NCBI GenBank assembly: GCA_019243205.1
Contig: JAFAUR010000714.1
Span: 1-41,904 of the forward strand
Source of the DNA: Acidobacteriaceae bacterium
GTDB taxonomy: Bacteria; Acidobacteriota; Terriglobia; Bryobacterales; Bryobacteraceae
Length of the DNA stretch: 41,904 nt
Direction of reading: 5' to 3'
In this document: positions 22-17,045 of the stretch, one piece after another
How the letters are laid out: each line of letters opens with the position of its first letter
Numbering within the stretch: the stretch's first letter is position 1
Made by a program: the position numbers and the translations under genes
Notes under the pieces: generated by a model
Told to the model about the DNA's origin: nothing
Database searches by the model: none
The model's input: only the letters and a program-made list of their open reading frames with translations

Positions 22-1326
22 TTACCGGAGAGAGTCGGATATGGCTCTGTCCATAGCGTTACGTTCACAACGAATGGCCGATCGCTGTGTGACAGTCCAG
101 CGCACTCCTCCTAAGAGTGTGGGGAGGAAAGTTCTTGTGTGTCGAAGCAACCGGCTAAACAACATTGGAAGTTGCCGAATCACAGCGGCGATACGGGATG
201 CTTTCGAGGTTGCGGGTCGCGCTTGATCGGTGAACAACGGGAGCGCCAGGGGTAATAGGCGCCTTAGGAACACGCTCAGCTGTTTCCTCCATTCGCAGAT
301 TAGCGATAAATGGAGCCATAGCTCGGATTTGTTTGCTTTCCATTCACGTTCGATTGGTGCAAAGGAGTAAGTTCGGAGCCAATTCCTAATCATTGGCGGC
401 AACGCTTGCAGTTCATTGTGAAAGTTGTTCCAGCCTTTGGTGTTGAACCACCGGATGAGAAGGTGAAACATACATACCTGCAATTGCCGCAGGGCGAGCG
501 GATGGAAATTACGCCAGGAATGCCAAAACGCCCCATCGTCGGCATGGGTGTCGAGAAATCGTGCGAGCTCCCACGCTCGTTGCAATGGCAACTCACCGTG
601 CAGTAAGTGGAGAAGCAGGTGGAGTGCGGCGAAGGCAATCAGATCCTGGTCACATAGAACCTTGATCACGTGACCATCGAAGTCGCGCAGCTCCGCTCGA
701 TGCCAAAATTGTTCGAGGCCCGGAGCCGGAATGTGCTCTGCGGCTTCGCTCCAAAGCTCATGATGCAGCTCTACTGAGATTGGCATGTCCGGATCGAACA
801 AATCGCCACGCCACTTCCAGTTACTTATCCTGGTCAGCGGCGGAAGGTGCCTTGATTCTGATTTGACGACCGGCACATATCCTAACCCTGCAAGAATGTT
901 CCAGCCCTTGTAAGCAGAATCACCGGGCAACCAGAGATCAATATCGCCTTGAGCCCTCAGGGCGGCATGAGGCGTAAGCGCCGGCGAGTGGCTCAGCCCT
1001 TTGAGCATCACAAATGGAAGCCTGGCGCGATCGAATGCGTCTGCAATTTCGTATAGTTTCCGTTTGATTCGCTCGAATCGAGTGTCGTAGCGGGAAGCTC
1101 TGCTAATCGCACCCTCAATCACCCAATCCGGTGCAGATGAGCAGATATAAGGGAGCAGAAGACTTATTTGCCGGGAATCGCACCACTCAAAAAATCGTTG
1201 TTGATCCAGCGGCGATAGTAACTCAAGACGAGCAGTCGATGGGCTTTGAAGTTGCAAGGCCTCCAACGCGGCAAGAATGTGCGCGGGCGGCTTCGATTTC
1301 ATACAGGATCTCGTAAGGTAATTCAA
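22..1326 (-). CDS. PF14907-type nucleotidyltransferase family protein
   Basis: A 434-residue protein of the nucleotidyltransferase-like family PF14907. The N-terminal core shows a lysine-glycine motif (FVMLKG, about 105-110) followed by GDIDLWL (127-133), which carries the acidic pair expected to bind metal and nucleotide. A second conserved patch, VELHHEL, lies at 185-191, and the C-terminal half is helical and Trp/Leu-rich. The TTG start at 1326 overlaps the TGA of the upstream kinase gene as TTGA, with GGAG nine bases upstream; an ATG at 1302 is the alternative. It is the last gene of the minus-strand unit. Relatives sit beside HprK-like kinases in some lasso-peptide clusters, where they tailor the product, and in some exopolysaccharide loci. 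The substrate here is unknown. Confidence 0.8.
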   Translation of the reverse strand: MNYLTRSCMKSKPPAHILAALEALQLQSPSTARLELLSPLDQQRFFEWCDSRQISLLLPYICSSAPDWVIEGAISRASRYDTRFERIKRKLYEIADAFDRARLPFVMLKGLSHSPALTPHAALRAQGDIDLWLPGDSAYKGWNILAGLGYVPVVKSESRHLPPLTRISNWKWRGDLFDPDMPISVELHHELWSEAAEHIPAPGLEQFWHRAELRDFDGHVIKVLCDQDLIAFAALHLLLHLLHGELPLQRAWELARFLDTHADDGAFWHSWRNFHPLALRQLQVCMFHLLIRWFNTKGWNNFHNELQALPPMIRNWLRTYSFAPIEREWKANKSELWLHLSLICEWRKQLSVFLRRLLPLALPLFTDQARPATSKASRIAAVIRQLPMLFSRLLRHTRTFLPTLLGGVRWTVTQRSAIRCERNAMDRAISDSLR

Positions 1327-2321
1327 TCGGGAAGCTCCGGCAGCAGCCCTTCTAGTAGCCCAATCGCGGGCGCTAACTCTGAGTAGCGCATCTCAAAAGT
1401 GGGCACGGCTAATAGACGCTCAAGTGCTTCGAGGCGCTCTTCAAAAGAGGTCATCTGCACGGCCCAAATAGAGGCGCTTAAACGCTCCCAGGATTCGTCT
1501 GTCGTGAGAGGGAGTAATTGGGGCGGCCCGGATTTGTGGTCATGCCTGTTCAAAAAGACGATGGCATCGACCGAGCTTTCTTCGGCTGTTTGGATCGCGG
1601 CAATGGTATGAGTCAGCACTTCAACTGTGGGTTTTCCGTATCCGCTGATAGCGCAGGCATGGCCCTTAAGCTCGGGGAACAATGTTGCAGCATTGTCACG
1701 AAATCGGAACTTGTGCGGATGACCAATGACTCGCGGTTCGGACAAGTTGCGTCGAAAGGCGCTGGTATCGTCGGACACAAATGTCCAACCTCGGCGAGCG
1801 CAAGCATAGGACAACGACGACTTTCCGGCACCCGATGCGCCGGCCAGAAGTGTCCCTTTGCCCTGAAATATGAGGCAGGCGGCATGCAGGCTTACTAAAT
1901 TTCTGATCTCGAGCAACGGATACACCATCACGTCGAGTAAGCACTGCCGAAAATATCCCTGATTTTTAGCAGTTGCTGTCGTGGCCCAGCCAAATGCAAA
2001 ACCGCATTGTAAATCAAGCGACGCGAAATTCTCGCGGTCAGCGACAATGCTTAGCAGATGACCCTGGGACCGGAAAACCGGTGGTTCGACGCACTTGAGG
2101 CTGTCGCTGTCTGAAATCAACAGACGAATGTCTAACGGCGGCTCGTCTTCAAGCTGACGGTAAGTGCCCCAGCTGCTCTCGGCTGCTTGTAGCGTGAGGG
2201 GCGAATTGGAGCGAATACGGGCGGGATAGCCGTACGGATAAAACGTGCGCTCGTAATTAAGAGGGCATCGTGTCAGTAGTGGATCGGTGACTGAATGCCC
2301 ATTGCGAACGGAAGTAATCAA
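1323..2321 (-). CDS. HprK-related P-loop kinase
   Basis: A 332-residue protein whose C-terminal half resembles the HPr kinase/phosphorylase fold. It has a Walker A loop, GASGAGKSS (about 161-169), and the acidic SDDTSAF motif (about 183-189) that follows the RG-W segment in HprK-like proteins. The N-terminal 140 residues are a lineage-specific domain. No HPr or PTS gene is nearby, so a role in carbon catabolite control is unlikely; phosphorylation of a small molecule, peptide or partner protein is more plausible. I prefer the TTG start at 2321 because it forms a TTGA overlap with the upstream stop and has GGGAGGG directly before it. An ATG at 2351 would add 10 residues but has no well-placed ribosome site. 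The 3' end overlaps the nucleotidyltransferase gene, so the two are probably made as a pair. Confidence 0.8.
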   Translation of the reverse strand: MITSVRNGHSVTDPLLTRCPLNYERTFYPYGYPARIRSNSPLTLQAAESSWGTYRQLEDEPPLDIRLLISDSDSLKCVEPPVFRSQGHLLSIVADRENFASLDLQCGFAFGWATTATAKNQGYFRQCLLDVMVYPLLEIRNLVSLHAACLIFQGKGTLLAGASGAGKSSLSYACARRGWTFVSDDTSAFRRNLSEPRVIGHPHKFRFRDNAATLFPELKGHACAISGYGKPTVEVLTHTIAAIQTAEESSVDAIVFLNRHDHKSGPPQLLPLTTDESWERLSASIWAVQMTSFEERLEALERLLAVPTFEMRYSELAPAIGLLEGLLPELPD

Positions 2322-3295
2322 TTGCCCTCCCAGTTGAGCGAGCACACACATCCCCTACAAATGGGGTTGGTTCGAACGTCGAGCGAGGAGCGAAATTGCT
2401 GCGCTTCAAACCCGTTAAGTACTTGAAGCAAGCTGTGCGACTGCAGCGATCCGATCGGGCGGTGAAAGAAACAAGGGCGAACGGTTCCGTCGGCCTCGAC
2501 CACCGCAGATACCCAAGGGGCGTTACAGCGAGGGGATTGCTGATCTGCTAATCCAAGGTGAGCACGGAAGTGATTCGCGATGCGGCAAAGCTTTCCCGAA
2601 TCTTCTGCCACAAAGCCGGTTCCTTGCCATTCGAGGTCTAATGCCTCGAAGGCACGCTCAAGAGTTTGAATCTCAGATAACGTCAGAGCGACTTGCGACT
2701 GGCGATCAGCCGCCCATTCTCGCCCGCGATTGAACGCTGTAGATTTCACATCAGCAGCCAGGAACGAAATGGACGTAAGATCTAGCTCCTTTGCCGCGCG
2801 AGCTGTCTGGACCGGGTACGCGTAATTGAGTTTCTGGATGGTGCAACGCCCCGAAATGGAGAACGCAGGGTTGATAGCGTGGATACTTCGGATGCCCCGC
2901 ATGAGTTCCAGAAAGGCGCCCGGTACGCGCCGAACGTGGTCATGGATCTGGGGAGGACCGTCCAGAGACACTATTACGTCGTCGATGCGGCCGCATATCT
3001 GCTCGGCGTATCGCGATAGAAGGAGACCCGAGCTGAGCAGAGTGACCCTTATCGCTCTTTGCCTCAGCATGTCCGCCAGACGGAAGAGATCCGGGTGCAT
3101 GAGCGGCTCACCCCCAGAGAACACTACCCAGCGGACGGATAGCGCTTCAATATCTGCCAAATGGCGGAAGAGCTCTTCCGCGGTAACCGAGGCAGCGCTT
3201 GTGCTCTTCCAGATGTCGCACATCACGCAGCGACAGTTACAACGAGAATGGGGAGAAAGTATGAGTATAGGAATCGACTGGAGGGTAGCTGTCAC
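2318..3295 (-). CDS. radical SAM protein with SPASM/twitch-like C-terminus
   Basis: A 325-residue radical SAM enzyme. Cys19, Cys23 and Cys26 form the CX3CX2C site for the SAM-binding 4Fe-4S cluster, inside CNCRCVMC, and SGGEP at 60-64 is the SAM-binding motif. The C-terminal 90 residues are Cys-rich (LCR, RCNAPW, RPCFF, CRGCVC), which fits an auxiliary-cluster SPASM or twitch domain. Such proteins commonly mature peptides or modify enzymes, but other chemistries are known. The GTG start at 3295 overlaps the amidohydrolase stop as GTGA, with GGAAAGG ten bases upstream. The 3' end overlaps the HprK-like gene. The neighbouring kinase and nucleotidyltransferase suggest that the three act on the same molecule; this is inference, as no precursor peptide is visible. 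Confidence 0.85.
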   Translation of the reverse strand: MTATLQSIPILILSPHSRCNCRCVMCDIWKSTSAASVTAEELFRHLADIEALSVRWVVFSGGEPLMHPDLFRLADMLRQRAIRVTLLSSGLLLSRYAEQICGRIDDVIVSLDGPPQIHDHVRRVPGAFLELMRGIRSIHAINPAFSISGRCTIQKLNYAYPVQTARAAKELDLTSISFLAADVKSTAFNRGREWAADRQSQVALTLSEIQTLERAFEALDLEWQGTGFVAEDSGKLCRIANHFRAHLGLADQQSPRCNAPWVSAVVEADGTVRPCFFHRPIGSLQSHSLLQVLNGFEAQQFRSSLDVRTNPICRGCVCSLNWEGN

Positions 3296-4473
3296 GCTGC
3301 GATAGCCTTTCCTGCCAATCGAACGGACTCGTCGAGAACATTCGCAGTCTGTGCGAGTAAGTAGCGTACTTTCTCGGCGATGAGGTACGTTCCCCGCCCT
3401 TCAACTCTTATCGGCTCGAGATTCGCCAGCCTAGACGGTGGGCAGAGCGCTGCCAGTGTCAATGAAATAAGCGCTATACGCCCTCGAGACATGACAAGCT
3501 CTGGATAACCCTCTAGCAGTGTTGCAGCCGGCGTCCGGCCTATATCCTTCATCACCAGCAAATCGGCTGGACCTTTGTCGCGAATTTGTCCGTAGCCGAA
3601 GGGTAGTTGTAACATGCTCGCGGCTTCCAGTGTGACCATCTTGTATAGCCGGTGCTCATCGGCACTCTTCTGAGCGAAGCGCAATTCGTCCAGCAGGTCG
3701 CCTGCGGCAGTTAGCGCCGAATCACTGCCTAGAGCAATCCGGATTCCGGACTCAATCATGTGGCGGTGGAGGCTTTCTCCTAACGTGAAGTGGTTGGAAC
3801 TCGGACACCAGACCAGGCCAGAGCCCGCCCTTTGCAGGATGGCAAGGCCCTTCCGGTTCAGGCCCACGCCATGGACAAGAATCGTTGAGCGATTGAGAGC
3901 GCCAGCTTGTGCCAGAGTTTCGATCTCACGGGAGGCGGCGGAGTCGGTGCCTTCTCCTGCATGAATGAGGAACGGGTAATTCCGTGGCGTGTTTGCGAAC
4001 CGAATCTTCCAGTCGGGTGAGAAGTCGATCGAGTGAGCCCACCCATATCGGCTTATCACTCGCACTGGAAAAGTCGGATGGCCCAACAGCGGATGAAAGT
4101 TGTTATGATGCGCGACGACTGTAACACCCGAGAGGAGATTTTTGATGCCTCCCCACCTGAGACGTAGCTCTTTAGGCACTCCAAGATGGCGCTTCACGGG
4201 CCGCTCGTCGGGACGATAGATGTCTCTCGCCCAGGCCAGCGCGTTTGGATAATGCCCTCGGCCCAGCTTGGGAAACAGATTCAACTCCAAATGATCATGT
4301 GCGTTGATCAGCCCCGGCAGGATCACGTGATCTTGCAGGTCGAGAGTGAATTTGTGCGCGGAAATCATGGGAGCAAAGAAAATGCGTCCATTCCGAATCC
4401 ACAAGCTTCTGTGAGCGAATTCGGCAGAGCTTACCGCCACGCGCGCGCCTCCGATTAGCATGGGTTCTGCCAT
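3292..4473 (-). CDS. metal-dependent amidohydrolase (ATZ/TRZ-like)
   Basis: A 393-residue member of the amidohydrolase superfamily, closest in look to the chlorohydrolase/deaminase branch. Metal-site residues are visible: His59-Asp-His61 in NAHDHLE at the end of the first strand, His171 in HAGEG, His201 in LVHG and Asp251 in GSDS. The small N- and C-terminal beta sandwich typical of the family is present (GGARV and ADLLVM segments). Family members hydrolyse C-N or C-Cl bonds in small molecules, often heterocycles. The ATG at 4473 overlaps the methyltransferase gene by 19 bases; an ATG at 4461 is also possible. Such an enzyme is not a usual partner of exopolysaccharide genes. Its presence here argues that the unit makes or degrades a specific small metabolite. 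Confidence 0.85.
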   Translation of the reverse strand: MAEPMLIGGARVAVSSAEFAHRSLWIRNGRIFFAPMISAHKFTLDLQDHVILPGLINAHDHLELNLFPKLGRGHYPNALAWARDIYRPDERPVKRHLGVPKELRLRWGGIKNLLSGVTVVAHHNNFHPLLGHPTFPVRVISRYGWAHSIDFSPDWKIRFANTPRNYPFLIHAGEGTDSAASREIETLAQAGALNRSTILVHGVGLNRKGLAILQRAGSGLVWCPSSNHFTLGESLHRHMIESGIRIALGSDSALTAAGDLLDELRFAQKSADEHRLYKMVTLEAASMLQLPFGYGQIRDKGPADLLVMKDIGRTPAATLLEGYPELVMSRGRIALISLTLAALCPPSRLANLEPIRVEGRGTYLIAEKVRYLLAQTANVLDESVRLAGKAIAA

Positions 4474-5135
4474 AAGCCGGCGAACAAGGCCGGGAGCGCG
4501 CGTGCCGACCAGAAGAGACGTTCCTTGCCGGCGCGTCGAAACAATGGAAACTCAGGCAGCCCGAAATGAACTGAACGCAGTGTCGTACACGCCAGTCCGG
4601 CATTTGCCGCAGCGAGTTTAATCTCGTCCATCTCACGCACGTGATGCGCAATGTCATATCGCTCGGCCCCCAACTTGAACGAACGCTTCCATCCAGCACG
4701 AAGCGCATAAGGATGAACATCACTTACAGCGATGTAAGCGCCAGGCTTTGCAACACGAGCGAACTCATGGAAGGCGAACCCAAGGTTTTCAAAGTAACCT
4801 AGAGATAGCGAACAGAGAACAAGATCCGCTGTCGAAGGAGCAACGGGAAGGCATTCGGCGTGTGCCAGAATCAACCGGCGCTTGAGCGATGGCGAGTTGC
4901 GTGCTTCGTTCAGCATTTCCTGGCTCAGGTCGATTCCGAAAACTGTTGATCCGGCCCGATCAAAATGCCGCAGCCAATATCCTGTCCCGCAAGCGACGTC
5001 CAGAAGAGTTGAAGGCCGCAGATTTCCAAGTAACTCGAGCGTAGACCGGCGTTCCAATAACACGATCGGATTAACTGCACTGTCGTAGACGGGAGCCCAG
5101 AGATCGTGTCCTTCCAGCGGCGAGACCTGCGTCAT
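4455..5135 (-). CDS. class I SAM-dependent methyltransferase
   Basis: A 226-residue methyltransferase of the UbiE/Methyltransf_11 type. Motif I, DVACGTG (46-52), binds SAM, followed by the acidic ribose contact in GIDLS (about 68-71) and a motif near HAECLP. I chose the ATG at 5135 because it overlaps the TGA of the upstream radical SAM gene as ATGA and removes an N-terminal stretch that does not look like the family. The 3' end overlaps the amidohydrolase gene by 19 bases. The acceptor (O, N or C) cannot be told from the sequence. It lies between radical SAM enzymes and the hydrolase, so it is presumably a step of the same pathway. Confidence 0.85.
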   Translation of the reverse strand: MTQVSPLEGHDLWAPVYDSAVNPIVLLERRSTLELLGNLRPSTLLDVACGTGYWLRHFDRAGSTVFGIDLSQEMLNEARNSPSLKRRLILAHAECLPVAPSTADLVLCSLSLGYFENLGFAFHEFARVAKPGAYIAVSDVHPYALRAGWKRSFKLGAERYDIAHHVREMDEIKLAAANAGLACTTLRSVHFGLPEFPLFRRAGKERLFWSARALPALFAGLWQNPC

Positions 5136-6598
5136 ATGCTTTCCAGGCGCGGCTTTCTTAATGCCACGAGGCGTTGTGCCCACGCAAGCTCGTACGGAAA
5201 GTGATAAAAGCCAAGTGAGTAACGCCAACTACTCAGCCCGCTCAGTAATGTTCGGCCCCAGCGAGGCAATTGGATATCCTGCACGGTCGGCCATCGGGAG
5301 TTAACGACCAGATCGAAGTTGTCTATCTTTCGCTTCAGCCGTCTTGGTAGCCAAGCCACATTCGGGTCGTGACGCGTTGTAAAGTTGTACCAGCGGTCGG
5401 TGGCCCATTCTTCAGGGGTTCGTGGGAACTGAATCTGCCCCTCGACCTTCCCGTACATGCCGTCTGGATGTGGCGTGGGAATGTAATGCTGAACGATAAT
5501 TTCTGCATCCGGATTAGCGCGTTTGATGCGGCGGATAAAACGGATTGTCTCGCGCGTGTCGCGTTCCGGATCTTTCGGATTTCCAATGACAAACGAAAAT
5601 TCCGGAACAATTCCGAAGTCGCGGATGCGAGCTGCTAATTCAAGAGTCTGGTTCGCGGTGATCTTTTTATTCATCTCCTTGAGCACCCAATCCGAACCGG
5701 ACTCTGCTCCAAAGAAAATCATCTTGGCTCCAGCGGTTTTCAGCAGCTTCAAGGTTCGATCGGAGTAACGGAGAAGGGCATCCACACGGCCTTCGCACCA
5801 CCATCTCAAGTTGAGCGGCTCAAGGTGGGTTGCCAAAGCGGCGGAGTGACTTTCGTTTAGAAAGAAATTGTTGTCATAGAACTGTATCGAATCAATGCTG
5901 TAGTTTGATTTCAGGTGAGCCAATACGGCGGCTGTGCGTTCCGGATCCTCCGTTCGCTGGCGCCCCTGGAATAGAGGAACGACTCCGCAAAATGTGCAGC
6001 GGAAAGGGCACCCGATGCTCGCTTGATGAACGGCCGTCCGCCGACCTAGGAAGGTTGGCAAAATGTAGTTACCCGCGTTCGGCAGCTTGTCGTAAGGAAG
6101 CCAGGGGAAATCGTTCGGAGAGCGGAGGGGCCTGTCGGGGTTATGGACATGTAACCCAAAGGTATCTTTGTATGAGAGGCCCTTTATACCAGAAAATGTT
6201 CTTCTGTTCCGCAACTCTTGAAGTAACTCGAGAAAAGTATCTTCGCCTTGGCCGCGTACAACAAAGTCGACATATGGCGCGTTCAGAGCGGCATCGGGAT
6301 AGAGGGAAGGGAAGTATCCACCCCATACGATTGGCGTGTAAGGACTGCGTTTGCGGAATTGACGACAGAGCGGGATGGCGGCGACCATCTGCGGTCCTGG
6401 CATAACGGAAACGGCTAGTAACGTGACGTTTCCCGTAACCGCCAGTCGTTCGAGAGTTAATTCTGGATGGGGATCGGCGTTCCCGTCCACGATGACATAG
6501 TTCTCTTTACCTTCTAGAACTGCCGCGATCGAGAGTACAGCGAGAGGAAAGCGCCGGTTCCTCGGTTTGGTCGAACGAGGATGGAGCAAAACGATCAT
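5132..6598 (-). CDS. B12-binding-type radical SAM protein (third paralogue)
   Basis: A 488-residue radical SAM protein with an N-terminal Rossmann-like domain of the cobalamin-binding type (about 1-130), containing VWGGYFPSL and the VRGQGE segment common to this group. The radical SAM barrel follows, with Cys197, Cys201 and Cys204 in CPFRCTFC. The canonical DxHxxG cobalamin motif is not evident, so B12 use is uncertain. The C-terminal tail has a W-R-Y then F-P-Y-E-L-A-W pattern that echoes the tails of the two upstream paralogues. I place the start at the ATG at 6598, with GAGAGGA six bases upstream, instead of a longer open frame reaching 6796. This leaves a 65-base gap after the preceding gene, the only real gap in the unit. 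It is the most diverged of the three paralogues. Confidence 0.85.
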   Translation of the reverse strand: MIVLLHPRSTKPRNRRFPLAVLSIAAVLEGKENYVIVDGNADPHPELTLERLAVTGNVTLLAVSVMPGPQMVAAIPLCRQFRKRSPYTPIVWGGYFPSLYPDAALNAPYVDFVVRGQGEDTFLELLQELRNRRTFSGIKGLSYKDTFGLHVHNPDRPLRSPNDFPWLPYDKLPNAGNYILPTFLGRRTAVHQASIGCPFRCTFCGVVPLFQGRQRTEDPERTAAVLAHLKSNYSIDSIQFYDNNFFLNESHSAALATHLEPLNLRWWCEGRVDALLRYSDRTLKLLKTAGAKMIFFGAESGSDWVLKEMNKKITANQTLELAARIRDFGIVPEFSFVIGNPKDPERDTRETIRFIRRIKRANPDAEIIVQHYIPTPHPDGMYGKVEGQIQFPRTPEEWATDRWYNFTTRHDPNVAWLPRRLKRKIDNFDLVVNSRWPTVQDIQLPRWGRTLLSGLSSWRYSLGFYHFPYELAWAQRLVALRKPRLESI

Positions 6599-6663
6599 GG
6601 GATCCTCTCGAACGTGAAATGCTGAGCGGCGGTTTCGCGTATTGCTCGCATAACGACTTTCAA

Positions 6664-8172
6664 TTAGTGAACCTCTTTGAGCTGCCGTCCCAAACCCTCG
6701 CCAGTGAGAAGAGAACGCCGAAGCACAAGCCAGTTTTGAGCCATAGAAGCCCACAACTCGACGGGCACCCGGAAGGCCTGGTGTTTCAATCGCCAATGAA
6801 GCGGTTTTTGGAGAAGCCGCACCGCTTCGTGACGGAATCCAGAGTGGAGACTATTCGTCAGCTTTGAGAGCTGGTTTGCGAGCGCGAAATAGGACATGCT
6901 GCGGGTCAACTGCGATAGCGCTTTCTGATTCAACCAAGGCAACTCGGCTTGGCCCAGTCCTACCGCCGCCCACTCTTCCAATGACTGTGGCTCGCTCAAA
7001 CCTGCTTCGCGGAGTTCAGGCCAGATAGGAATGCCGGGATATGGCGTAAAGAGGTTCGGTGAGAACGTGACATTTTGAAATCGCTCCGCAATCTCGCCCA
7101 TCACTCGTAACGTTTCGCATCGATGCCGGTCTTCTTCTCCCGGGTAGCCGAAGATAAGGTTGAAGGTGACCCGAATGCCGGCGTCCCCGCATTTCCGGGC
7201 GGCTTGGAACATGTCCTCGATCTTCTGATGACCCTTGTGCATTTTGCGGAGGATTTCCGGCGAAGCAGACTCGGTCCCAAATCCGATATGGCTCACACCG
7301 CTGGTTGCAAGCAGCCGCACCTGGCCGTCAGTTAGCCGGCACAGCAGGTCAGTCGAAGCTTGAAAAGTCCAGCGGAACTTCACGTCACTTCGGATGAAGC
7401 CCTCCGCTACCGCGAGGGCGCGGCGAGTGTCGACCAGAAAATTAGAATCGACGAGTGCAACCTCATCGAGCGAGTGCATTTTGACTAATTGAACGATCTC
7501 GGTTACGACGTTCGCGACGCTTTGAGGATTGAAGCGCCGGTTATAAAACACCATGTCTGTGCAGTAATTGCAGGCATATGGGCACCCGATGCTGGTCGCA
7601 TACGGCAGCTTCCGGCCTCTCGTGAGGCGAGCGTACGATTCGAAGTCGACCAGATCGTACGCGGGCGTGGGAAGCGTGTTGAGAGCTGATGCGGGGCGGT
7701 CGGTGTTCCTGATAATCTTGCCGTCCCGCTTGAACCAGCAGCCGGGGACCATATCCAAGCTGAGGCCTCGGGATTGCCGCTGCAAAATTTCGGAAAGGGT
7801 TTTCTCGCCTTGATGACGGACGATGATGTCTACAAAATGTTCTTGCAGCGTTTGGGCCGTGAGCAAGGTTGGATGCCAACCGCCGTAGATGATGGGCAAG
7901 TCCGGCCGAACCGCTCGTACCGCGCGACTAGCGGCAATCGCGTGACGGATCATAGGACCGGTCAGCAGCGAAACACCGAAAGCAAATGCGTCCTTAACTT
8001 CCCGGAGCACAACTTCTAAGAAAGTTGGAGTTATCGCACCATCTATGACCACGGGCAGAAAGCCGTGTTCGCGAATGGCAGAAGCGACACTGAGCAGACC
8101 CAGAGGCGGACCGAAAACTCTGCCATCGTAAGGCGGAGAAAAGAGGACTACCTTCCGGCTTTGATTCAGCAA
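6664..8172 (-). CDS. B12-binding-type radical SAM protein (second paralogue)
   Basis: A 502-residue radical SAM protein. The N-terminal cobalamin-binding-like domain (about 1-130) has PPLGLLSVA, SLLTGPMIR and GGWHPTLL. The radical SAM cluster cysteines are Cys197, Cys201 and Cys204 in CPYACNYC, at the same positions as in the third paralogue. The C-terminal 100 residues are helical and end in a PVELW motif. It is clearly closest to the first paralogue, sharing the TGPMIR and GGWHP blocks. The start is TTG at 8172, backed by AGAGGTGG about five bases upstream and by a 7-base overlap with the preceding stop. Known relatives do methylation, ring rearrangement or P- and C-methyl transfer; no substrate can be assigned here. 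Confidence 0.87.
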   Translation of the reverse strand: MLNQSRKVVLFSPPYDGRVFGPPLGLLSVASAIREHGFLPVVIDGAITPTFLEVVLREVKDAFAFGVSLLTGPMIRHAIAASRAVRAVRPDLPIIYGGWHPTLLTAQTLQEHFVDIIVRHQGEKTLSEILQRQSRGLSLDMVPGCWFKRDGKIIRNTDRPASALNTLPTPAYDLVDFESYARLTRGRKLPYATSIGCPYACNYCTDMVFYNRRFNPQSVANVVTEIVQLVKMHSLDEVALVDSNFLVDTRRALAVAEGFIRSDVKFRWTFQASTDLLCRLTDGQVRLLATSGVSHIGFGTESASPEILRKMHKGHQKIEDMFQAARKCGDAGIRVTFNLIFGYPGEEDRHRCETLRVMGEIAERFQNVTFSPNLFTPYPGIPIWPELREAGLSEPQSLEEWAAVGLGQAELPWLNQKALSQLTRSMSYFALANQLSKLTNSLHSGFRHEAVRLLQKPLHWRLKHQAFRVPVELWASMAQNWLVLRRSLLTGEGLGRQLKEVH

Positions 8173-9662
8173 GAAACCACCTCTGCGGAGAGCTGCTGAG
8201 CATCCACTTTGGGCTTAAGCGGCGGGAACATCTTATTAGCCTTGTCCTTCAGCCAAAGCTCCAGCGGTGCGTCATAGAAGCTGTGGTCGAGCCGCCAGCG
8301 TGCCGGCAAGCTGATTGTTCGGTGCACCAGCCGAGCAACGGGATGCTTCTTCTGTACTCCGATAGGCACGCGGTTGAACGCAACGCGAAGATACTCTCGC
8401 ATTCGTTGTACGCGCCTGTGCTCCTGTCCTTTGAGCCACGGAAGAACAGTGTATCGGGGAAAAAAATCGGCCCAGCCTTCGAAGCTGTTAGGTACCTGAA
8501 TACCGAGCTCGAAGGCTTTTTTCATTACCGGCGAGCCTGGATACGGCGTAAAGATATTCGTCCAGAACTCGGCCTGTGGATAGCGGCGGCAGATATTCAT
8601 GATGAGGTCGATTGATTCGCGGCGCTCTACTTCGGTTTCACCCGGAAAGCCAAAGATGATGTTGAACGATGGACGAATTCCAGCTTGTGTCAGGCGGTCA
8701 GCCGCGAGATAGATGGTTTCCAGTTTCTGAAAGTCCTTATTCATGAGATGCAGGATTTTCTTTGAGCCGGAGTCCGCGCCCTGGGCGATCTGAGAGAGTC
8801 CAGCGCGGCGTAGAAGCTTGAGTTCCTCCACGGTCATTCGAGTGACCAGGTTCGTAGAGGCCTGGATACTCCAATCGAAGTGAACGCCCTTCCGAACGAT
8901 ACCTTCGGCAATGTTTACGGCGCGATCGCGATCTACTAGGAAATTGTCATCCACGACCCAAAGTAATTGCAGGTGGTAACGCGATACGAGGTCAGTTACT
9001 TCTTCGACGACCTGGTCTGCTTCTAAGGCATTCCACTTGCGCCCGTATAGCCCATCATTCGTGCAGTATGCGCAATTATAAGGACAGGCCAGGCTGGAGG
9101 TGTACATCGCCCAGCGGCGTCCGCATACCTGCTCGTAAGCGTCAAAGTCAGCGAGGTGATACGCTTTGGGCGGCAGTTCGCGGATCGGCTTCAGCGCACG
9201 CGGAACATTAAATGCGAGCTTGCCGGCTTCTTTATAGGCGACACCGGGAATACCTTTGAACGATGCGCCCGATTGGATCCGCTGCACCATTTCGAGCAGC
9301 GCTTCCTCCCCTTGGCCAACTACTATGGCATCCACATAAGGGAAGGCAAGAGTTTGGTCGGGCAACAGAGAGGGATGCCAACCCCCGAGGATGACTGGCT
9401 TATCCGGGTAAGCTGCCTTTGCGGCTTTTGCAATTTGCGCAGTTTCGCGGATCATGGGACCAGTAACTAGCGAAATTGCCAGACAAATAGAATCCTCCAA
9501 CTCCTTAATGACTTGTCTTTGAAAATTCGGCGTAATGGTGGAGTCGATGATGCGAACCGTGTAACCAGCGCGTTCGAGAGGCGTGGCTAAAGCTAGAATG
9601 GCCAAAGGCGCGGTTGCCTCCTGGCTGGAAAAAGCCGGAAAGAAAAAGAGCACCTTCTTCAT
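8166..9662 (-). CDS. B12-binding-type radical SAM protein (first paralogue, first gene of unit)
   Basis: A 498-residue radical SAM protein. The N-terminal cobalamin-binding-like domain carries APLAILALA, SLVTGPMIR and GGWHPSLL; the barrel has Cys193, Cys197 and Cys200 in CPYNCAYC; the tail ends with a PLELW motif. I use the ATG at 9662 (MKKVLFFFP) as the start; an in-frame GTG at 9695 is possible but has no better ribosome site. It is the first gene of the eight-gene minus-strand unit. A direct-repeat site of the type shared by the exopolysaccharide promoters lies about 77 bases upstream (9739-9757), the most concrete hint that this unit is controlled together with the polysaccharide genes. 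Function unknown beyond the family. Confidence 0.87.
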   Translation of the reverse strand: MKKVLFFFPAFSSQEATAPLAILALATPLERAGYTVRIIDSTITPNFQRQVIKELEDSICLAISLVTGPMIRETAQIAKAAKAAYPDKPVILGGWHPSLLPDQTLAFPYVDAIVVGQGEEALLEMVQRIQSGASFKGIPGVAYKEAGKLAFNVPRALKPIRELPPKAYHLADFDAYEQVCGRRWAMYTSSLACPYNCAYCTNDGLYGRKWNALEADQVVEEVTDLVSRYHLQLLWVVDDNFLVDRDRAVNIAEGIVRKGVHFDWSIQASTNLVTRMTVEELKLLRRAGLSQIAQGADSGSKKILHLMNKDFQKLETIYLAADRLTQAGIRPSFNIIFGFPGETEVERRESIDLIMNICRRYPQAEFWTNIFTPYPGSPVMKKAFELGIQVPNSFEGWADFFPRYTVLPWLKGQEHRRVQRMREYLRVAFNRVPIGVQKKHPVARLVHRTISLPARWRLDHSFYDAPLELWLKDKANKMFPPLKPKVDAQQLSAEVVSC

Positions 9663-9738
9663 GAGCGTACCCGGCAGGCCGGACTTTGGAAACACAGGCC
9701 CAGTATGAAAGGGATCTCACAAGACTGTGTTGGAGAGC

Positions 9739-9783: not shown

Positions 9784-11199
9784 TCATCTGATTTGCCGCG
9801 TCAAGTCGAAGCCGAGAAAAATGTTTTCAATCGTACCCGCATGCGGATCATTCAGGAAGGAAGAATTCGGAGCTGCTCGCTGTGACACGGTCGTGCCGGG
9901 GCCTGTGGTTAGACCAAAGGTGAACGCGTGTCGCCAGATTTTTTTCTGGATCCCAAAGGAGAAAACCGGCCGCTGGATGTCGAGTTCCCGAGCATTCGCG
10001 AGTGTGGGAATTACTTCGGCGAGCAGAGCGACCGTTGGTCTGATGTCGAAAGCCAGACCGGTGCCCAAGGAGAAAGCTGTGAAACCCGGCTCCGCGGAGA
10101 TAGAGCTCGAGTAAAAATTGATGGGCTGTATCACGCGGCGGTCGTTGAAACTGACCGTTGGCACTATGTAGAACTGCGCGCGAGAAGTGAGGCTACGCGA
10201 AAGAATGCCTTCGATGTTCTCCGTAAAATTCCTGCTGAAGTTGTTTTGTCCTTCAATGGATACTCGGACCATCAGATTCAGCGGACTTCCTTCGCCTTCC
10301 TCTATCAAGTTGTAGCCGGCCATGAACTGGATGGGACGATTGATGGCTGACGGGGATCGGTAGACGCCTACGGAAAGCTTGTCAGTAACCCCGTATCGCA
10401 CGCCTAGTGACGAGATGGCGAAGTTGTCCAGGCCAAGTAGCGTTGCCCCGGCGTTCGGGCTGGTGAACGCCGGTTGGAACGGAAACCGATGAGAGAAATT
10501 GACATATACACCATGGCGATCGGTAGGTCGCCCGGTTGGTAGCGAGAAGAGGACATCGTCGCCAGGCTCGTAAATCTTGGGTTTGTTCGCTGCCACCTGG
10601 CCAGGGCGCTTTACTGTCGAACCCCCAGCCACATTGCTTGGCGGCAACTCGGAGGGAGCGGCCGGTAATGAGCGGACATAATGCACTAACTCTGAAATCT
10701 GTTGCGAACTGAGTTTTCCTGACCAGGCAGGCATTACGCCCTTGCCTTTACGGATTACTGCTTCCATGTCGCTGGCACTTACGCCTGCCTGGAACGCCGG
10801 GTCGGTGAAATCAGGAGTTCCGATCGACTTTTTCCCTTTACCATCCGGACCATGGCACGTAGCACAGTTCTTCGCAAACAACGAGCCTGCCTCTCCCGTT
10901 GGCGAACTCTGAACAGGAAGTTCTCGTACCGTGCCTCCAGCCAGGTCAACTAAATACCGCTTCCCATTTTTTGTTAGAACCATCGAAGTCGGTGATTCGT
11001 CGGTAATAGAGACGTCGCGGGACCCCTGTGTATCACCGGCGGGCGAAGCGTGAGGAGCAGTTGCGGAAGGTGCGCTTGTTGAATGGACCTGAACAGGAAT
11101 GCTTGCCGTATCCGGAGCTTGTGAATGAGCTGCTGATGCCAGCCAGCTCATTATGCTTAACACAACCACGAAATGTACTAAGTGGGCGCGACTTATCAA
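9784..11199 (-). CDS. secreted cytochrome c fused to an outer-membrane beta-barrel-like domain
   Basis: A 471-residue two-part protein. A signal peptide (about 1-27, ending ASAAHSQ) is followed by a variable linker and a small conserved block. Then comes a class I cytochrome c domain with CATCH at 112-116 and a likely distal Met156 in KGVMPAW. From about 215 to the end the chain alternates polar and hydrophobic residues with many aromatic ends and closes in an F/L-x-R-type strand, which looks like a DUF5777-type outer-membrane barrel. The start codon appears to be TTG at 11199. It diverges from the sugar transferase, with a repeat box pointing towards each gene. It may hold an electron carrier at the outer membrane, possibly serving the Rieske/cytochrome b complex further along. 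The barrel call rests on pattern, not on a search. Confidence 0.7.
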   Translation of the reverse strand: MISRAHLVHFVVVLSIMSWLASAAHSQAPDTASIPVQVHSTSAPSATAPHASPAGDTQGSRDVSITDESPTSMVLTKNGKRYLVDLAGGTVRELPVQSSPTGEAGSLFAKNCATCHGPDGKGKKSIGTPDFTDPAFQAGVSASDMEAVIRKGKGVMPAWSGKLSSQQISELVHYVRSLPAAPSELPPSNVAGGSTVKRPGQVAANKPKIYEPGDDVLFSLPTGRPTDRHGVYVNFSHRFPFQPAFTSPNAGATLLGLDNFAISSLGVRYGVTDKLSVGVYRSPSAINRPIQFMAGYNLIEEGEGSPLNLMVRVSIEGQNNFSRNFTENIEGILSRSLTSRAQFYIVPTVSFNDRRVIQPINFYSSSISAEPGFTAFSLGTGLAFDIRPTVALLAEVIPTLANARELDIQRPVFSFGIQKKIWRHAFTFGLTTGPGTTVSQRAAPNSSFLNDPHAGTIENIFLGFDLTRQIR

Positions 11200-11320: not shown

Positions 11321-11446
11321 CCCTCAAACACTCGTGATTAGTTGTTGCCCTATGTTCAGGATGTGCACTCAGGAGAAGCCGGCACGGCTGTTTATGAGCC
11401 TACGTTTGTGGCATCGGAAGGCACCATCTGGCAGTTATGGAATCTC

Positions 11447-12034
11447 ATGGAGCGGATAGTGGCAGGAGCCGTACTCACTTTGATGGGTCCGGCGCTGCTA
11501 ATCTCGGCGATTGCGATTATCGTGATGTCACGCCGGTCACCGTTCGTGGCGCATCAGCGAGTTGGACAGCGCGGTCGCCTGATATGGGTCCTGAAGCTCC
11601 GCACCATGTGGGACGGGCATTCGCAAGGACGGTTTAAGCTCGTTCATCGCCTTTCTCAATCCGAGGCGCCGCTTTTGCCTCCGGCGCAAAAAAATGCCCG
11701 GGTGACCAGCAGATTCGCCGCCTTTTGTCGCCGATTCTCCGTCGACGAGCTCCCACAACTTTGGCAGGTCATTCAAGGTGAAATGTCACTGATCGGCCCT
11801 CGTCCGCTCACGAGGCAAGAATTGACCGCCTACTACGGTGGTGCTGCTGCCAGTGTCATGTCATCAAGACCAGGAATCAGTGGATTATGGCAGGTGAGTG
11901 GACGCAGTCGGTTGACCTACCCGCAACGGCGGCGTCTGGACGTGTTTCTGGTCCGCAAGCGCTCCTTCCCCCTATATTTCAAAATTCTGTGGCTTACCAT
12001 TCCACGCGTTTTGAGCGGTAAAGACGCATGGTAG
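11447..12034 (+). CDS. priming sugar transferase (monotopic phosphoglycosyl transferase)
   Basis: A bacterial sugar transferase (PF02397), 195 residues from the ATG at 11447. It begins exopolysaccharide repeat-unit assembly by moving a sugar phosphate from a nucleotide sugar to undecaprenyl phosphate at the inner membrane. One N-terminal hydrophobic segment (about 5-27) is followed by the HQRVG motif, LKLRTM, and the catalytic Asp100-Glu101 pair in SVDELPQLW with IGPRP after it. The frame stays open upstream to a TTG at 11342. The family usually begins just before the hydrophobic segment, and box C would be too close to 11342, so I prefer 11447. It is the first gene of the plus-strand glycosyltransferase unit. 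Confidence 0.85.
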   Translation: MERIVAGAVLTLMGPALLISAIAIIVMSRRSPFVAHQRVGQRGRLIWVLKLRTMWDGHSQGRFKLVHRLSQSEAPLLPPAQKNARVTSRFAAFCRRFSVDELPQLWQVIQGEMSLIGPRPLTRQELTAYYGGAAASVMSSRPGISGLWQVSGRSRLTYPQRRRLDVFLVRKRSFPLYFKILWLTIPRVLSGKDAW

Positions 12035-12077
12035 GAACCACGCCGGACGTCAACAGAATTTGTGACCGCAGGTTGTG

Positions 12078-13211
12078 ATGCGGTGTGCCATCGTTCATTA
12101 TTGGCTGCTCGGGATGCGGGGCGGCGAGAGGGTGGTTGAGGAGCTTTGTCGGATTCTGCCCCACCCGGATATTTACACGCTCTTCTATGATCCCGACCGG
12201 GTGTCACCTTTTCTTTCCTCTCACTCCATAACGGCATCGTTTCTTAACCCGTTTCGGCGATATTACCGTTCGTGTTTACCGTTCGCGCCGCTCGCGCTCG
12301 AATCTTTCGATCTGCGCGGCTACGACTTGGTCGTCAGCAGTGAGTCCGGTCCGGCGAAGGGCATCTTAACTCCCTCCCACACCCGCCACGTTTGTTACTG
12401 CCACACTCCTATGCGGTATCTGTGGGATCTCTATCCGGCATACGTACGCGAATGGACTCATTCGCGGGTGAAACGAACGTTCATGGCTCCACTGTGTAAC
12501 TACTTACGTCTATGGGATGCCAGTTCTGCCGCCCGTGTTGATCGGTTCCTCGCGAACAGTCGGAACGTGCGAAACCGCATCTGGAAAACATACCGACGAC
12601 GGTCGAAGGTCATCCATCCTCCCGTTGCTGTGGAGACATTCTACTCTGCGACGTCGGACGATTATTACCTGATAGTTTCAGAACTCGTCGCATACAAACG
12701 GATCGATGATGCCGTGCGATGTTTTACGAGTACAGGGAGGCGGTTGAAGATCGTTGGAGGCGGGCCGGAGTATAAACGTTTGAAGAAAATATCGGGACCG
12801 ACGATCGAATTCTGCGGGCGAGTTCGGGATTCGGAACTGCGGGCTCTATATGCGCGGGCTCGGGCCGTGCTGCTGCCAGGTGAAGAAGACTTCGGAATCG
12901 TTCCGGTTGAAGCGTTAGCTAGTGGAAAGGCAGTTATCGCCCTGGCAAGAGGAGGCGTGCTGGAGACAGTACCCAGTTGCGAGCCGCAGGCCGGATTCTT
13001 CTACTCGGACGTCGGTGAACGGTTTCTGGAGGGTGCGGTCAGGCAGTTTGAAAAAAATGAGCACCTGCTGAAACCCACAGCAATTCAGGAGTGTGCAAAC
13101 AGCTTTTCTTGCGAAGTGTTCCGGCGAAAGATGTCGACGTTCTTATTTGGCCGGCAAGGAAACGTAGAAGCCGATTCCGCATGGGAGGTTGCCGGTTGCA
13201 AAACACATTAG
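12078..13211 (+). CDS. GT4-family glycosyltransferase
   Basis: A 377-residue GT-B fold glycosyltransferase. The N-terminal domain has the GGERVVEE motif (about 15-22) and CHTPMRYLWDLY (about 109-119), typical of mannosyl- or rhamnosyl-transferase-like GT4 enzymes. The C-terminal domain has the nucleotide-sugar-binding pattern PGEEDFGIVPVEA with the two glutamates about nine residues apart (about 269 and 278). It should add one sugar of the exopolysaccharide repeat unit on the cytoplasmic face; donor and linkage cannot be read. The ATG at 12078 follows a GTG at 12075 in the same frame. It lies 43 bases after the priming enzyme and overlaps the next glycosyltransferase by 16 bases. Confidence 0.88.
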   Translation: MRCAIVHYWLLGMRGGERVVEELCRILPHPDIYTLFYDPDRVSPFLSSHSITASFLNPFRRYYRSCLPFAPLALESFDLRGYDLVVSSESGPAKGILTPSHTRHVCYCHTPMRYLWDLYPAYVREWTHSRVKRTFMAPLCNYLRLWDASSAARVDRFLANSRNVRNRIWKTYRRRSKVIHPPVAVETFYSATSDDYYLIVSELVAYKRIDDAVRCFTSTGRRLKIVGGGPEYKRLKKISGPTIEFCGRVRDSELRALYARARAVLLPGEEDFGIVPVEALASGKAVIALARGGVLETVPSCEPQAGFFYSDVGERFLEGAVRQFEKNEHLLKPTAIQECANSFSCEVFRRKMSTFLFGRQGNVEADSAWEVAGCKTH

Positions 13212-14368
13212 AGGAGTCGTCGCGGACGGCTTGTAATCGGAAAATCCTGTGCGTAGATCAGTTTGTGAACATGGGAGGCGCACAGCGCAGCCTGCTGGAC
13301 CTGCTTCCTGCGTTCGCTGCACGTGGCTGGTATTCGTCGGTAGCGATTCCAGGCGAAGGGCCCTTTGCGGAAATCATTCGGCGATCGGGCTTCCGAACGC
13401 ACAGCTTCGCGGCTTCGGCGTATTCCAGTAAAAAGAAGCCCCTGTGGCAGCTGCTCAGATATGGATTCAAAATTCCAGGGCTCGTCGAGTTCCTCGCGGA
13501 CGTTGTCGAACGCGAAAACGTAAACCTTCTGTACATCAACGGTCCGCGGTTGGTTCCGCCGGCGGCCTGGGTGGCCTGGCGAAAAGGACTCCCTCTCGTC
13601 TTTCATCTTCACAATCGGCTACTACAGAACTCGGCCGTGGCGCTCACGGGGCAAGCTCTGGAACTCGCGAACGCCCATGTCATTGCGTGTTGCCGCTACG
13701 TGGTCGAACCACTCCGGGAATATATCGAGCAAAAGCGTTTGCACATTATCTATGATGGTGTGGCCAACATCGGAGTCGGTGGCCGGCGACGCCGGACCAT
13801 ACGAACGATTGGGGTCGTTGGGAGAATTGAAACCGAAAAAGGTCAGCTTGAATTTACGCGCGCTGCGAAGCTCGTGGCACAAGAGCTTCCTGACTGCCGG
13901 TTCCTCGTTGTTGGGGCGCCGATGTTCTCCGACCACAAATACTTTATGAAGGTAGTTGCGAATAGTAGGGAACTTCCCATTGAGTTCATCGATTGGCAGC
14001 ATGATATCGCCCAAATCTATTCAAAGCTTGATTTACTGGTCGTACCTTCGAGCAATGCTGAAGCGACAACTCGAGTCATTCCGGAAGCCTTCAGCGCGCG
14101 CCTTCCCGTGGTTGCGTTTGCGGCAGGCGGTATACCAGAGATTCTCGCCGATGAGGTAACAGGTTTCGCCGTGACTAATATGACACCGGGGGGCCTCGCC
14201 AAACGGATCGTGGCCGTTGCCAAAATGGAGCAGGAAAAACTGGATATGGTCATCGACCGAGCGCGAGAGGTCTGGAGGAGCAGATTTACATTGCGGAGTT
14301 ATAGTGACAGTGTCTGTCAAGTGCTTGCCGACGCAATGATCCCAAAGTTCGCAGCTGAGGCAAGCTGA
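13196..14368 (+). CDS. GT4-family glycosyltransferase
   Basis: A second GT-B glycosyltransferase, about 390 residues. The N-terminal acceptor domain contains QFVNMGGAQRSL, which is typical of GT4 enzymes, and LVFHLHNR. The C-terminal domain begins at GVVGRIETEKGQ and has the EAFSARLPVVA segment with AGGIPEIL. The frame extends up to 13091 inside the preceding gene. The best start is TTG at 13196, because GGGAGGTT lies five to six bases before it; an ATG at 13181 is the alternative. It is the last gene of the plus-strand unit. Its final 52 bases overlap, tail to tail, the end of the convergent Wzy-like gene, so the two units have no room for a terminator between them. Confidence 0.87.
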   Translation: MQNTLEESSRTACNRKILCVDQFVNMGGAQRSLLDLLPAFAARGWYSSVAIPGEGPFAEIIRRSGFRTHSFAASAYSSKKKPLWQLLRYGFKIPGLVEFLADVVERENVNLLYINGPRLVPPAAWVAWRKGLPLVFHLHNRLLQNSAVALTGQALELANAHVIACCRYVVEPLREYIEQKRLHIIYDGVANIGVGGRRRRTIRTIGVVGRIETEKGQLEFTRAAKLVAQELPDCRFLVVGAPMFSDHKYFMKVVANSRELPIEFIDWQHDIAQIYSKLDLLVVPSSNAEATTRVIPEAFSARLPVVAFAAGGIPEILADEVTGFAVTNMTPGGLAKRIVAVAKMEQEKLDMVIDRAREVWRSRFTLRSYSDSVCQVLADAMIPKFAAEAS

Positions 14369-17006: not shown

Positions 17007-17045
17007 GCTCAGAGGTGAGGTCGGGTTACGGACAGATACTCAAAA

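Follow-up and report, generated by a model that had tools for sequence, protein, structure and literature searches.

What might be made by an operon that combines B12-binding radical SAM enzymes with a methyltransferase, an amidohydrolase, a radical SAM/SPASM enzyme, an HprK-like kinase and a nucleotidyltransferase? The question is raised by a contig of an Acidobacteriaceae bacterium, analysed over its whole length of 41,904 nucleotides and here called the window, in which eight intact ORFs occupy positions 9662 to 22 of the minus strand (Table 1). Adjacent genes share about 4 to 34 bp; the preliminary description, in which the eight genes lie on one strand and nearly all overlap, is correct, the RS2/RS3 junction being the single exception. 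All Pfam assignments of the operon genes are above cut-off, except that of the HprK C-terminal domain (29.7 bits versus 33.3). Since the window is the entire contig, sequence to the left of base 22 cannot be read. The answer that we favour, with a probability of roughly 0.35 for the explanation as a whole, is that a biosynthetic core of Terriglobia is present here in reduced form, together with an activation pair. The core would make a small molecule derived from the GTP or flavin pathway, the kinase and nucleotidyltransferase would convert it to a nucleotide-like form, and relatives without the core would import it.

Table 1. Coordinates in the window of the operon genes and of features 5' of them.
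Feature	Position	Strand	Remark
RS1, B12-binding radical SAM enzyme	8166..9662	-	best conserved core gene
RS2, B12-binding radical SAM enzyme	6664..8172	-	RS1 paralogue, 38% identity; variable in relatives
65-bp gap RS2/RS3	6599..6663		in relatives RSx, RSy, g251 and g266 occupy the site
RS3, B12-binding radical SAM enzyme	5132..6598	-	core gene
Class I methyltransferase (MTase)	4455..5135	-	core gene
TRZ/ATZ-type amidohydrolase (AmdH)	3292..4473	-	complete deaminase-type active site
Radical SAM/SPASM enzyme	2318..3295	-	Pfam
HprK-like kinase	1323..2351	-	Walker A GASGAGKS; H156, K177, D194/D195
Nucleotidyltransferase PF14907 (NTP_transf_5)	22..1326	-	predicted minimal nucleotidyltransferase core
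c-type cytochrome/DUF5777 beta-barrel protein	9784..11199	-	5' of RS1 in some relatives
Exopolysaccharide locus: sugar transferase, two glycosyltransferases, Wzy-like, flippase, Wzz	11342..18245		

Relatives of RS1, which has a CxxxCxxC motif at residue 193 and a C-terminal Cys in 10 of 11 aligned rows, occur at 96 public loci. The best 80 of these were analysed, and within them RS1 identity over the best segment is 57-89%. RS1 stands alone at a few loci (e.g. L123 and L165); in most loci with enough sequence the other genes of the set adjoin it with their order kept, and the gene set is therefore not a chance grouping. The conserved core comprises up to 10 genes, of which five encode B12-binding radical SAM enzymes and three encode methyltransferases, the others being those for an amidohydrolase and a radical SAM/SPASM enzyme; the gene list first given thus holds for the window copy but not for the relatives, in which B12-type radical SAM genes number as many as five rather than three. 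Among the 48 loci that extend for 11 kb or more from the RS1 start to the locus end, RS1 is present in 48, RS3 in 46, RSy and the MTase in 45 each, RSx and g251 in 44 each, SPASM in 39 (some loci are possibly cut before this gene), g266 and AmdH in 37 each and RS2 in 28. The MTase and amidohydrolase genes are fused in 18 of 39 adjacent pairs. These fusions, the conserved block and an HprK-like gene that travels with the core all agree with the proposal that the genes serve one pathway. It is doubtful whether the c-type cytochrome/DUF5777 protein is part of the system; its family is present in five of the best 80 loci. Upstream of RS1 there is no strong motif in common (AATTGTCA in 15 of 78 regions, as against at most eight in five letter shuffles), and sigma-70 and terminator scans of window positions 9500-11400 remained at chance level.

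The core was encountered only in Acidobacteriota, mainly Terriglobia. In a sample of the phylum 12 of 297 genomes match, including one clear case (G497, 974 bits) and one weak case (G483, 515 bits) outside the class; in the class sample RS1 was counted only above 600 bits (35 of 41 matching genomes), and in the family sample it is patchy (21 of 150 genomes). It should be noted that the 80 loci and the loci of the genome samples come in part from the same genomes. Plasmid-borne relatives of the B12 radical SAM enzymes are below 31% identity among the matches listed. None of the listed NCBIfam matches of RS1, RS2, RS3, RSx and RSy (for RS2 the best 25 of 28) reaches its curated cut-off, the highest score being that of RSy to BchE (156.3 versus 481.35). 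The system had been put forward as undescribed, to be given up if the neighbourhood were not conserved or belonged to a known cluster type; the block is conserved, no known cluster type was matched, no NCBIfam match lies above cut-off and no such system was found in the literature searched. HpnJ and the ladderane-type model TIGR04072 are among the top-scoring known models, which might suggest that the B12 enzymes methylate or join long-chain lipids such as hopanoids or iso-diabolic acids. We consider this very improbable, as all the model scores are far under the cut-offs, the distribution is patchy, and a deaminase-type hydrolase, a kinase, a nucleotidyltransferase and ribA (see below) do not fit it.

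Four core genes are missing from the window, namely RSx, RSy, g251 and g266, and the place where they would be expected is exactly the RS2/RS3 gap. Another contig of the same genome, C596, carries a divergent set in the order RSx-RSy-g266-g251, with 50, 56, 46 and 40% identity to genome G008. Its RSy, at 57% where nearer relatives have 69-84%, forms a long branch of unsure position in the tree; no closer RSy copy was found elsewhere in the genome of the window. Since the assembly of this genome is fragmented and has 6% contamination, C596 may be foreign. Given the four missing genes, the window copy may make a variant product, may be helped by the C596 set or may be decaying.

The kinase follows the core closely. 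It was found in 34 of 35 RS1-positive and 18 of 165 RS1-negative genomes of the class sample, where HprK was counted only above about 200 bits (52 of 75 matching genomes), and in 21 of 21 and 33 of 129, respectively, of the family sample; the Fisher tests in this work ignore kinship. Fourteen of 14 chosen Acidobacteriaceae genomes have a kinase homologue, several of them weak. Where kinase and core share a contig they lie within 20 kb of each other in 27 of 29 cases, the other two RS1-positive genomes having the kinase more than 250 kb away; in five further cases the two are on separate contigs. The best NCBIfam match of the kinase is HprK-related kinase A, TIGR04352 (46.4 bits, curated cut-off of 200 not reached); a few relatives deviate at its Asp pair. 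The nucleotidyltransferase, which mostly adjoins the kinase, scores 84.3 bits to PF14907 (gathering score 31.2) with K109-G110, D128 and D130 invariant. Its predicted fold is nearest TM1012, followed by ANT(2'')-Ia and LnuA among others, with Foldseek E-values of 0.0017 or worse.

In genomes without the core the kinase usually has other neighbours, an outer-membrane barrel and an MFS transporter that in many cases forms a fusion with the nucleotidyltransferase. An MFS gene lies within 9 kb of the kinase in none of 17, 7 and 37 RS1-positive loci (family sample, other families and a third set) and in 20 of 23 and 7 of 13 RS1-negative ones (family sample and other families); for a barrel within 4 kb the figures are 1/17, 0/7 and 0/37 as against 18/23 and 7/13. 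The single barrel among the 17 depends on the rule used (0 or 1); it is that of G050, about 1.6 kb from the kinase. These counts rest on wide neighbourhoods of 40 of the 58 kinase places in the family (including L050, where the window genome has its second copy of the kinase), on seven RS1-positive places of other families picked partly because the kinase is far from the core, and on 13 of 14 RS1-negative class genomes outside the family with a strong HprK match (G299 left out). Three of these 13 (G192, G234 and G322) carry a variant core, and two (G209 and G256) have neither core nor transporter. More distant transporters would be missed, because RS1-positive loci often end at a contig end or at the 10-kb flank. 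Kinship was allowed for on the kinase's own gene tree (a quick search, with L050 left out and G050 coded as lacking the transport module): of eight independent pairs (starred branches), 6.8 on average showed opposite changes and none a change in the same direction (median p 0.016, range 0.016-0.063).

Outer-membrane barrels of this type are common in Acidobacteria. The direction of transport by the MFS protein and the barrel cannot be read from sequence; the one partner barrel that was scanned has, besides its main OMP model, a weak TonB-receptor-like match (30.9 bits, cut-off 27), which suggests uptake. Some core-less relatives appear to import the molecule instead of making it. Alternatively, the core might make an antibiotic-like heterocycle, with the kinase, nucleotidyltransferase and MFS protein serving for modification and efflux in producers and resistant neighbours. 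The resemblance of the nucleotidyltransferase model to aminoglycoside and lincosamide nucleotidyltransferases, among others, would agree with this, as would the MFS fusion in 20 of 23 RS1-negative family loci. It is nevertheless unlikely: producers should need efflux most, yet none of the RS1-positive loci tested has an MFS gene as close as 9 kb to the kinase, and the barrel suggests uptake.

The main rival, which we regard as somewhat unlikely, is decoration of a surface polymer. The core would make a methylated substituent or lipid head, which the kinase and nucleotidyltransferase would link to exopolysaccharide or a lipid carrier as a phosphodiester or phospho-sugar. After the kinase and nucleotidyltransferase, exopolysaccharide-type genes are the commonest neighbours in the best 80 of the 96 loci (two glycosyltransferase families in 15 and 14, Wzz in 12, GT87 in 11, an export protein and a sugar transferase in 10 each), and the pair itself occurs in exopolysaccharide loci as well. 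A precedent is offered by PsmK and PsmN of a lasso-peptide cluster, which phosphorylate a serine and add hexoses to the phosphate (PMC9266682, PMC8498205). The adjoining exopolysaccharide genes noted in the preliminary description are thus seen at many loci; the tie that it drew between product and polymer is supported to that extent but weakened by the transporter exchange and, to a lesser degree, by L129, L130 and L131, where the 10 kb 5' of RS1 gave no homologue of the polysaccharide genes of the window. Polymer decoration leaves unexplained both the transporter and barrel beside the kinase in core-less genomes and the ribA/ribB genes; the exchange fits a free small molecule better than polymer attachment.

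The suggestion of a GTP- or flavin-pathway origin comes from riboflavin genes. In six genomes (G050, G192, G234, G322 and two of Edaphobacter lichenicola) ribA lies inside or beside the locus; stand-alone ribB is found in G050, G234 and G322, and in G050 stand-alone ribA and ribB adjoin the kinase/nucleotidyltransferase pair. About 0.4 such cases would be expected by chance (p 4e-6 for at least six, 0.008 for at least three), on the assumption of 120 loci and a single ribA in every 6 Mb, with kinship ignored. Amongst the 21 RS1-positive genomes of the family sample, 18 have one ribA copy, two have two and one has none at threshold; two copies occur in 2 of 129 RS1-negative genomes. A flavin-reductase-like family, of which one member was scanned, is present in 4 of the 80 loci. 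It counts against this part of the reading that no more than six genomes have ribA/ribB close to the core or kinase, that most RS1-positive family genomes have a single ribA, and that a search of 22 sources at gathering score gave neither an FMN nor a cobalamin riboswitch, a tRNA being the only Rfam match.

On our reading, the core would modify a nitrogen heterocycle originating from the GTP or riboflavin pathway, the B12 enzymes carrying out C-methylation or ring chemistry, alongside O- or N-methylation and hydrolytic deamination. By analogy with riboflavin kinase and FAD synthetase, the HprK-like kinase would then phosphorylate a hydroxyl group and the nucleotidyltransferase attach a nucleotide, while genomes without the core would take up the finished molecule and merely activate it. 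A more specific form, held more tentatively, is that soil Acidobacteria share a vitamin-like cofactor, which B12 radical SAM chemistry would build, probably from a flavin or pteridine, with core-bearing producers and scavengers equipped with barrel and MFS importer, both activating it to a dinucleotide-like form.

AmdH is one of the points in favour of our reading. It scores 48.8 bits to PF01979 (gathering score 25), and H59xH61, H171xxE174, H201 and D251 are invariant in 35 rows. Its closest solved folds are adenosine/methylthioadenosine-type deaminases (Z 36.2), with which it shares catalytic residues; 34 of the 35 rows have a carboxylate (D or E) at the position aligned with what we take to be the ribose-binding Glu of such enzymes. 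In contrast to the MTA/SAH/adenosine deaminases (TRZ/ATZ amidohydrolases), to which identity is about 21%, AmdH relatives are often fused to a methyltransferase. Fold, carboxylate and fusion would all suit a housekeeping enzyme that deaminates S-adenosylhomocysteine or 5'-deoxyadenosine from the many SAM enzymes, a role to which we give slightly less than even odds. Eight of 12 core-bearing genomes tested, however, have no copy anywhere at E 1e-20; ten of the 12 had been picked because the fetched locus lacked AmdH. A housekeeping role is compatible with every other reading of the product, and AmdH would then be uninformative about it.

The SPASM domain, and the lasso-kinase residues His-Lys-Asp-Asp as described in PMC9266682, which we map to H156, K177, D194 and D195 of the window kinase, might instead point to a ribosomal peptide modified by the radical SAM/SPASM and B12 enzymes, with the kinase and nucleotidyltransferase acting on a C-terminal serine. 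The 2835 ORFs of 20-140 aa that lie no more than 4 kb from the core in the best 80 loci and the window yielded no plausible precursor on all-against-all comparison; their most frequent families, present in 39, 25 and 10 loci, were read as antisense shadows of core genes. A peptide product, raised earlier as an alternative, is thus not supported by any conserved small ORF within this distance, and we consider it quite unlikely.

Should our reading be correct, up to five B12 radical SAM families without an assigned reaction would share one pathway in an abundant, poorly understood soil phylum. HprK-like kinases and PF14907 nucleotidyltransferases would gain a role beyond lasso peptides, and the make-or-import split could be tested in cultured Edaphobacter, Granulicella and Terriglobus. 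Whether or not the product is a cofactor, the replacement of the core by a transporter is a handle on the substrates of both activating families.

Several known systems invite comparison. In lasso-peptide clusters an HPr-kinase-like protein (PadeK/PsmK) and PsmN are neighbours, as are the same two protein types here, and the kinase catalytic residues are shared; here, in contrast, the partners are B12 radical SAM enzymes or, elsewhere, transporter and barrel, and no precursor was found within 4 kb of the core. The 20 window proteins scanned include neither an asparagine-synthetase-like cyclase nor a leader peptidase. In SynChlorMet, ScmE is the top model of the operon SPASM protein (74.1 bits, below the cut-off of 400) and ScmC a weak match of the kinase (17.6 bits, below 125). 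The core B12 enzymes have the architecture of BchE, HpnJ, ApyD, TIGR04072 and TIGR04013, scoring 68-156 bits against cut-offs of 251-750, none of which is reached. Finally, riboflavin kinase and then FAD synthetase phosphorylate flavins and add a nucleotide to them. These proteins are unrelated to the operon pair and most loci lack ribA/ribB, whereas the succession of kinase and nucleotidyltransferase may be the same.

The minus strand of the window from position 9662 to 22 is filled by eight intact ORFs. Pfam names RS1, RS2 and RS3 as B12-binding/radical SAM proteins, alongside a class I methyltransferase (MTase), an amidohydrolase, a radical SAM/SPASM protein and a nucleotidyltransferase (NTP_transf_5); the HprK-like kinase (hereafter the kinase) matches the Pfam HPr-kinase C-terminal model weakly (29.7 bits, cut-off 33.3). 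RS2 and RS3 are spaced by 65 bp, and every other junction in the operon overlaps. A search with 11 aligned RS1 sequences (mean column identity 84%) found 96 loci in a named genome collection; the best 80 of these 96, which were kept, are all Acidobacteriota by title, including Granulicella, Edaphobacter and Terriglobus albidus. RS1 and the genes around it form a core of up to ten genes, among them RSx and RSy, which also encode B12-binding radical SAM proteins, and two methyltransferase genes, g251 and g266. Their presence is given in the table for the 48 loci that extend 11 kb or more from the RS1 start to the locus end, where end genes may be cut; RS1 lacks any further core gene in two of these, and at some loci the core forms two divergent blocks.

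Features of the window and of related loci, with the presence of core genes
Feature	Locus	Position	Core gene present
Operon (minus strand)	window	22-9662	
RS1	window	8166-9662	48/48
RS3			46/48
RSy			45/48
MTase			45/48
RSx			44/48
g251			44/48
SPASM			39/48
g266			37/48
Amidohydrolase			37/48
RS2			28/48
Inverted repeat	window	11264-11320	
Cytochrome b/c-type and Rieske proteins	window	20946-23091	
Histidine phosphatase (G050)	L032	4624-5247	
Histidine phosphatase (G008)	L031	15257-16081	
PhyH-type dioxygenase	L191	9891-11009	
PhyH-type dioxygenase	L192	7836-8774	
PhyH-type dioxygenase	L207	6856-7878	
Barrel, kinase, nucleotidyltransferase-MFS fusion	L037	3787-9417	

By its gene content, the window copy is a reduced core. 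RSx, RSy, g251 and g266 are absent precisely at the 65-bp gap, RS2 and RS3 are intact, and no close copy of RSy occurs elsewhere in the window's genome. This genome is fragmented (1139 contigs, 90.7% complete, 6.08% contamination); another of its contigs (C596, locus L171) carries a divergent RSx-RSy-g266-g251 set that the contig end truncates; upstream of it lie a DMFA2_C-domain protein and, by eye, a glycosyltransferase-like ORF. That the core is old, with mainly vertical descent and losses, is suggested by a tree of RSy, in which Bryobacteraceae-type and Acidobacteriaceae-type loci are broadly apart, support for both large groups being unstarred. A sample of the phylum gave matches in 12 of 297 genomes, two of them outside the class and one of these weak.

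The CxxxCxxC motif occurs in nearly every copy examined (RS1 77/78, RS2 43/43, RSx 65/65, RSy 60/60, RS3 56/56, SPASM 27/28). Among the matches listed, the five B12 radical SAM proteins all score below the curated NCBIfam cut-offs, the top score being that of RSy against BchE (156.3 of 481.35 bits). RS1 has a cysteine at its C-terminus in 10 of 11 aligned proteins. No published description of this cluster was found in the titles and abstract openings of a literature collection that excludes most subscription papers. The preliminary description had allowed for a peptide product with its precursor beyond the left edge; the window is one entire contig, with nothing readable left of the operon, and we regard a peptide as unlikely on the evidence so far.

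The kinase (36/80) and the nucleotidyltransferase (30/80) are the commonest neighbours of the core in the best 80 of 96 loci, the next family reaching 15/80. The kinase is present in all 21 genomes with RS1 (RS1+) of the family sample versus 33 of 129 without it (RS1-; p 2e-11), and in 34 of 35 versus 18 of 165 in the class sample (p 5e-24), kinship being ignored in both. In the class sample it lies within 20 kb of the core in 27 of 29 same-contig cases and on a different contig in five more. All 14 chosen RS1-bearing Acidobacteriaceae genomes have a homologue, ten of them just at E 1e-13 to 1e-20. It should be noted that the association tests cover the kinase alone. The two genes probably belong to the system, membership of the kinase being very highly probable. 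The His and Lys of the kinase are conserved, as is the Asp pair in most rows, and the nucleotidyltransferase model (pLDDT 89.9) matches the cores of TM1012 and ANT(2'')-Ia with weak E-values, from 0.0017.

HprK-like reading frames of ~680-760 codons with two kinase matches each occur in L201 (G256:C337) and in further genomes from families f4 and f5. In G050 and G008 a histidine phosphatase (branch 1), similar to CobC-type phosphatases, adjoins the nucleotidyltransferase, and at three loci a PhyH-type dioxygenase lies close to the HprK-like gene; a protein similar to the latter was seen by eye in L209.

The transport genes found near the kinase are distributed in the opposite way to the core. 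An MFS transporter lies within 9 kb of it, under a common rule, at 0/17, 0/7 and 0/37 RS1+ loci versus 20/23 and 7/13 RS1- loci, and an outer-membrane barrel within 4 kb at 1/17, 0/7 and 0/37 versus 18/23 and 7/13; the three RS1+ sets share genomes, and contig ends truncate many RS1+ loci. The family sample has a nucleotidyltransferase-transporter fusion at 20 of 23 RS1- and none of 17 RS1+ loci, and at L037 and similar loci the barrel and the kinase are followed by this PF14907 fusion. The one barrel scanned has PF25183 and a carboxypeptidase-regulatory-like domain. A kinase tree (60 rows) has 13 changes of RS1 status and 15 of transport; in eight independent pairs on starred branches a mean of 6.8 were opposite and none concordant (median p 0.016, range 0.016-0.063), and the genera coded g35 and g73 each contain both states. 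The exchange can be read, with about even odds, as making versus importing a compound, the direction of transport being assumed.

MTase and amidohydrolase form a single open reading frame in 18 of 39 adjacent pairs, which makes it probable that they act jointly. The confident amidohydrolase model (pLDDT 95.2) has its nearest structural matches among adenosine-type deaminases (4gbd, Z 36.2, rmsd 2.9, 350 residues; 1j6p, Z 36.0), with HxH, HxxE, His and Asp invariant across 35 rows. Residue 84, Asp or Glu in 34 of these rows, is profile-aligned with a Glu of 3lnp, which we take to be the ribose-binding position of that family. The enzyme may serve the pathway or deaminate a by-product; no gene was found at E 1e-20 in 8 of 12 core-bearing genomes, 10 of the 12 having been picked for a fetched locus without it.

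Some genomes link these loci to GTP and flavin genes. Three genomes counted as RS1- (G192, G234 and G322) have a variant core of g251, GTP cyclohydrolase II (191.5 bits in G192), RSx, g266, amidohydrolase, glycosyltransferase, GT87 and kinase; in G192 and G234 a nucleotidyltransferase was also detected at its start. In G234 and G322 the kinase has a stand-alone ribB no more than ~3 kb away, and in G192 a ribB-ribA fusion lies ~14 kb upstream of the nucleotidyltransferase. G050, a genome from the same genus as the window, has the operon order ribA-ribB-HprK-nucleotidyltransferase, both rib proteins exceeding curated cut-offs (218.7 of 205.85 and 240.1 of 177.45), with another ribA elsewhere in the genome. 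In two genomes of Edaphobacter lichenicola, ribA precedes RS1 by ~2.4 kb, and a flavin-reductase-like family occurs at 4 of the best 80 of 96 loci (one member scanned, 29.8 bits, cut-off 27). Against a flavin link, however, 18 of 21 RS1+ genomes in the family sample carry a single ribA, and a riboswitch search found none.

Outside the operon, an inverted repeat (TTGTAAAAGT...ACTTTTACAA; 15-nt arms, 87% complementary, 27 nt apart) lies between the divergent cytochrome/DUF5777 and sugar transferase genes; its half site occurs six times in the window with at most one mismatch, versus 1.2 expected. Cytochrome b/c-type and Rieske proteins are encoded within the exopolysaccharide locus between an export protein and Wzi, and L094 has homologues in the same position.

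Since either the core or a transporter is nearly always accompanied by the kinase, and sometimes by ribA/ribB, the reading that fits best is a small molecule that would be made by the core or taken up by the transporter, with phosphorylation and nucleotidyl transfer activating it afterwards. We give this whole chain, GTP/flavin-type origin included, a probability of roughly 0.35; that the kinase substrate is a small molecule is slightly favoured. The main rival, decoration of a polymer, to which the preliminary description had pointed from an upstream box and the adjoining exopolysaccharide locus, seems somewhat less probable. Flavins are likewise activated by phosphorylation and nucleotidyl transfer, but with unrelated enzymes. 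A precedent for the kinase and nucleotidyltransferase pair is provided by PsmK/PsmN, in which phosphorylation is reported to be followed by the addition of a hexose onto the phosphate (PMC9266682, PMC8498205).
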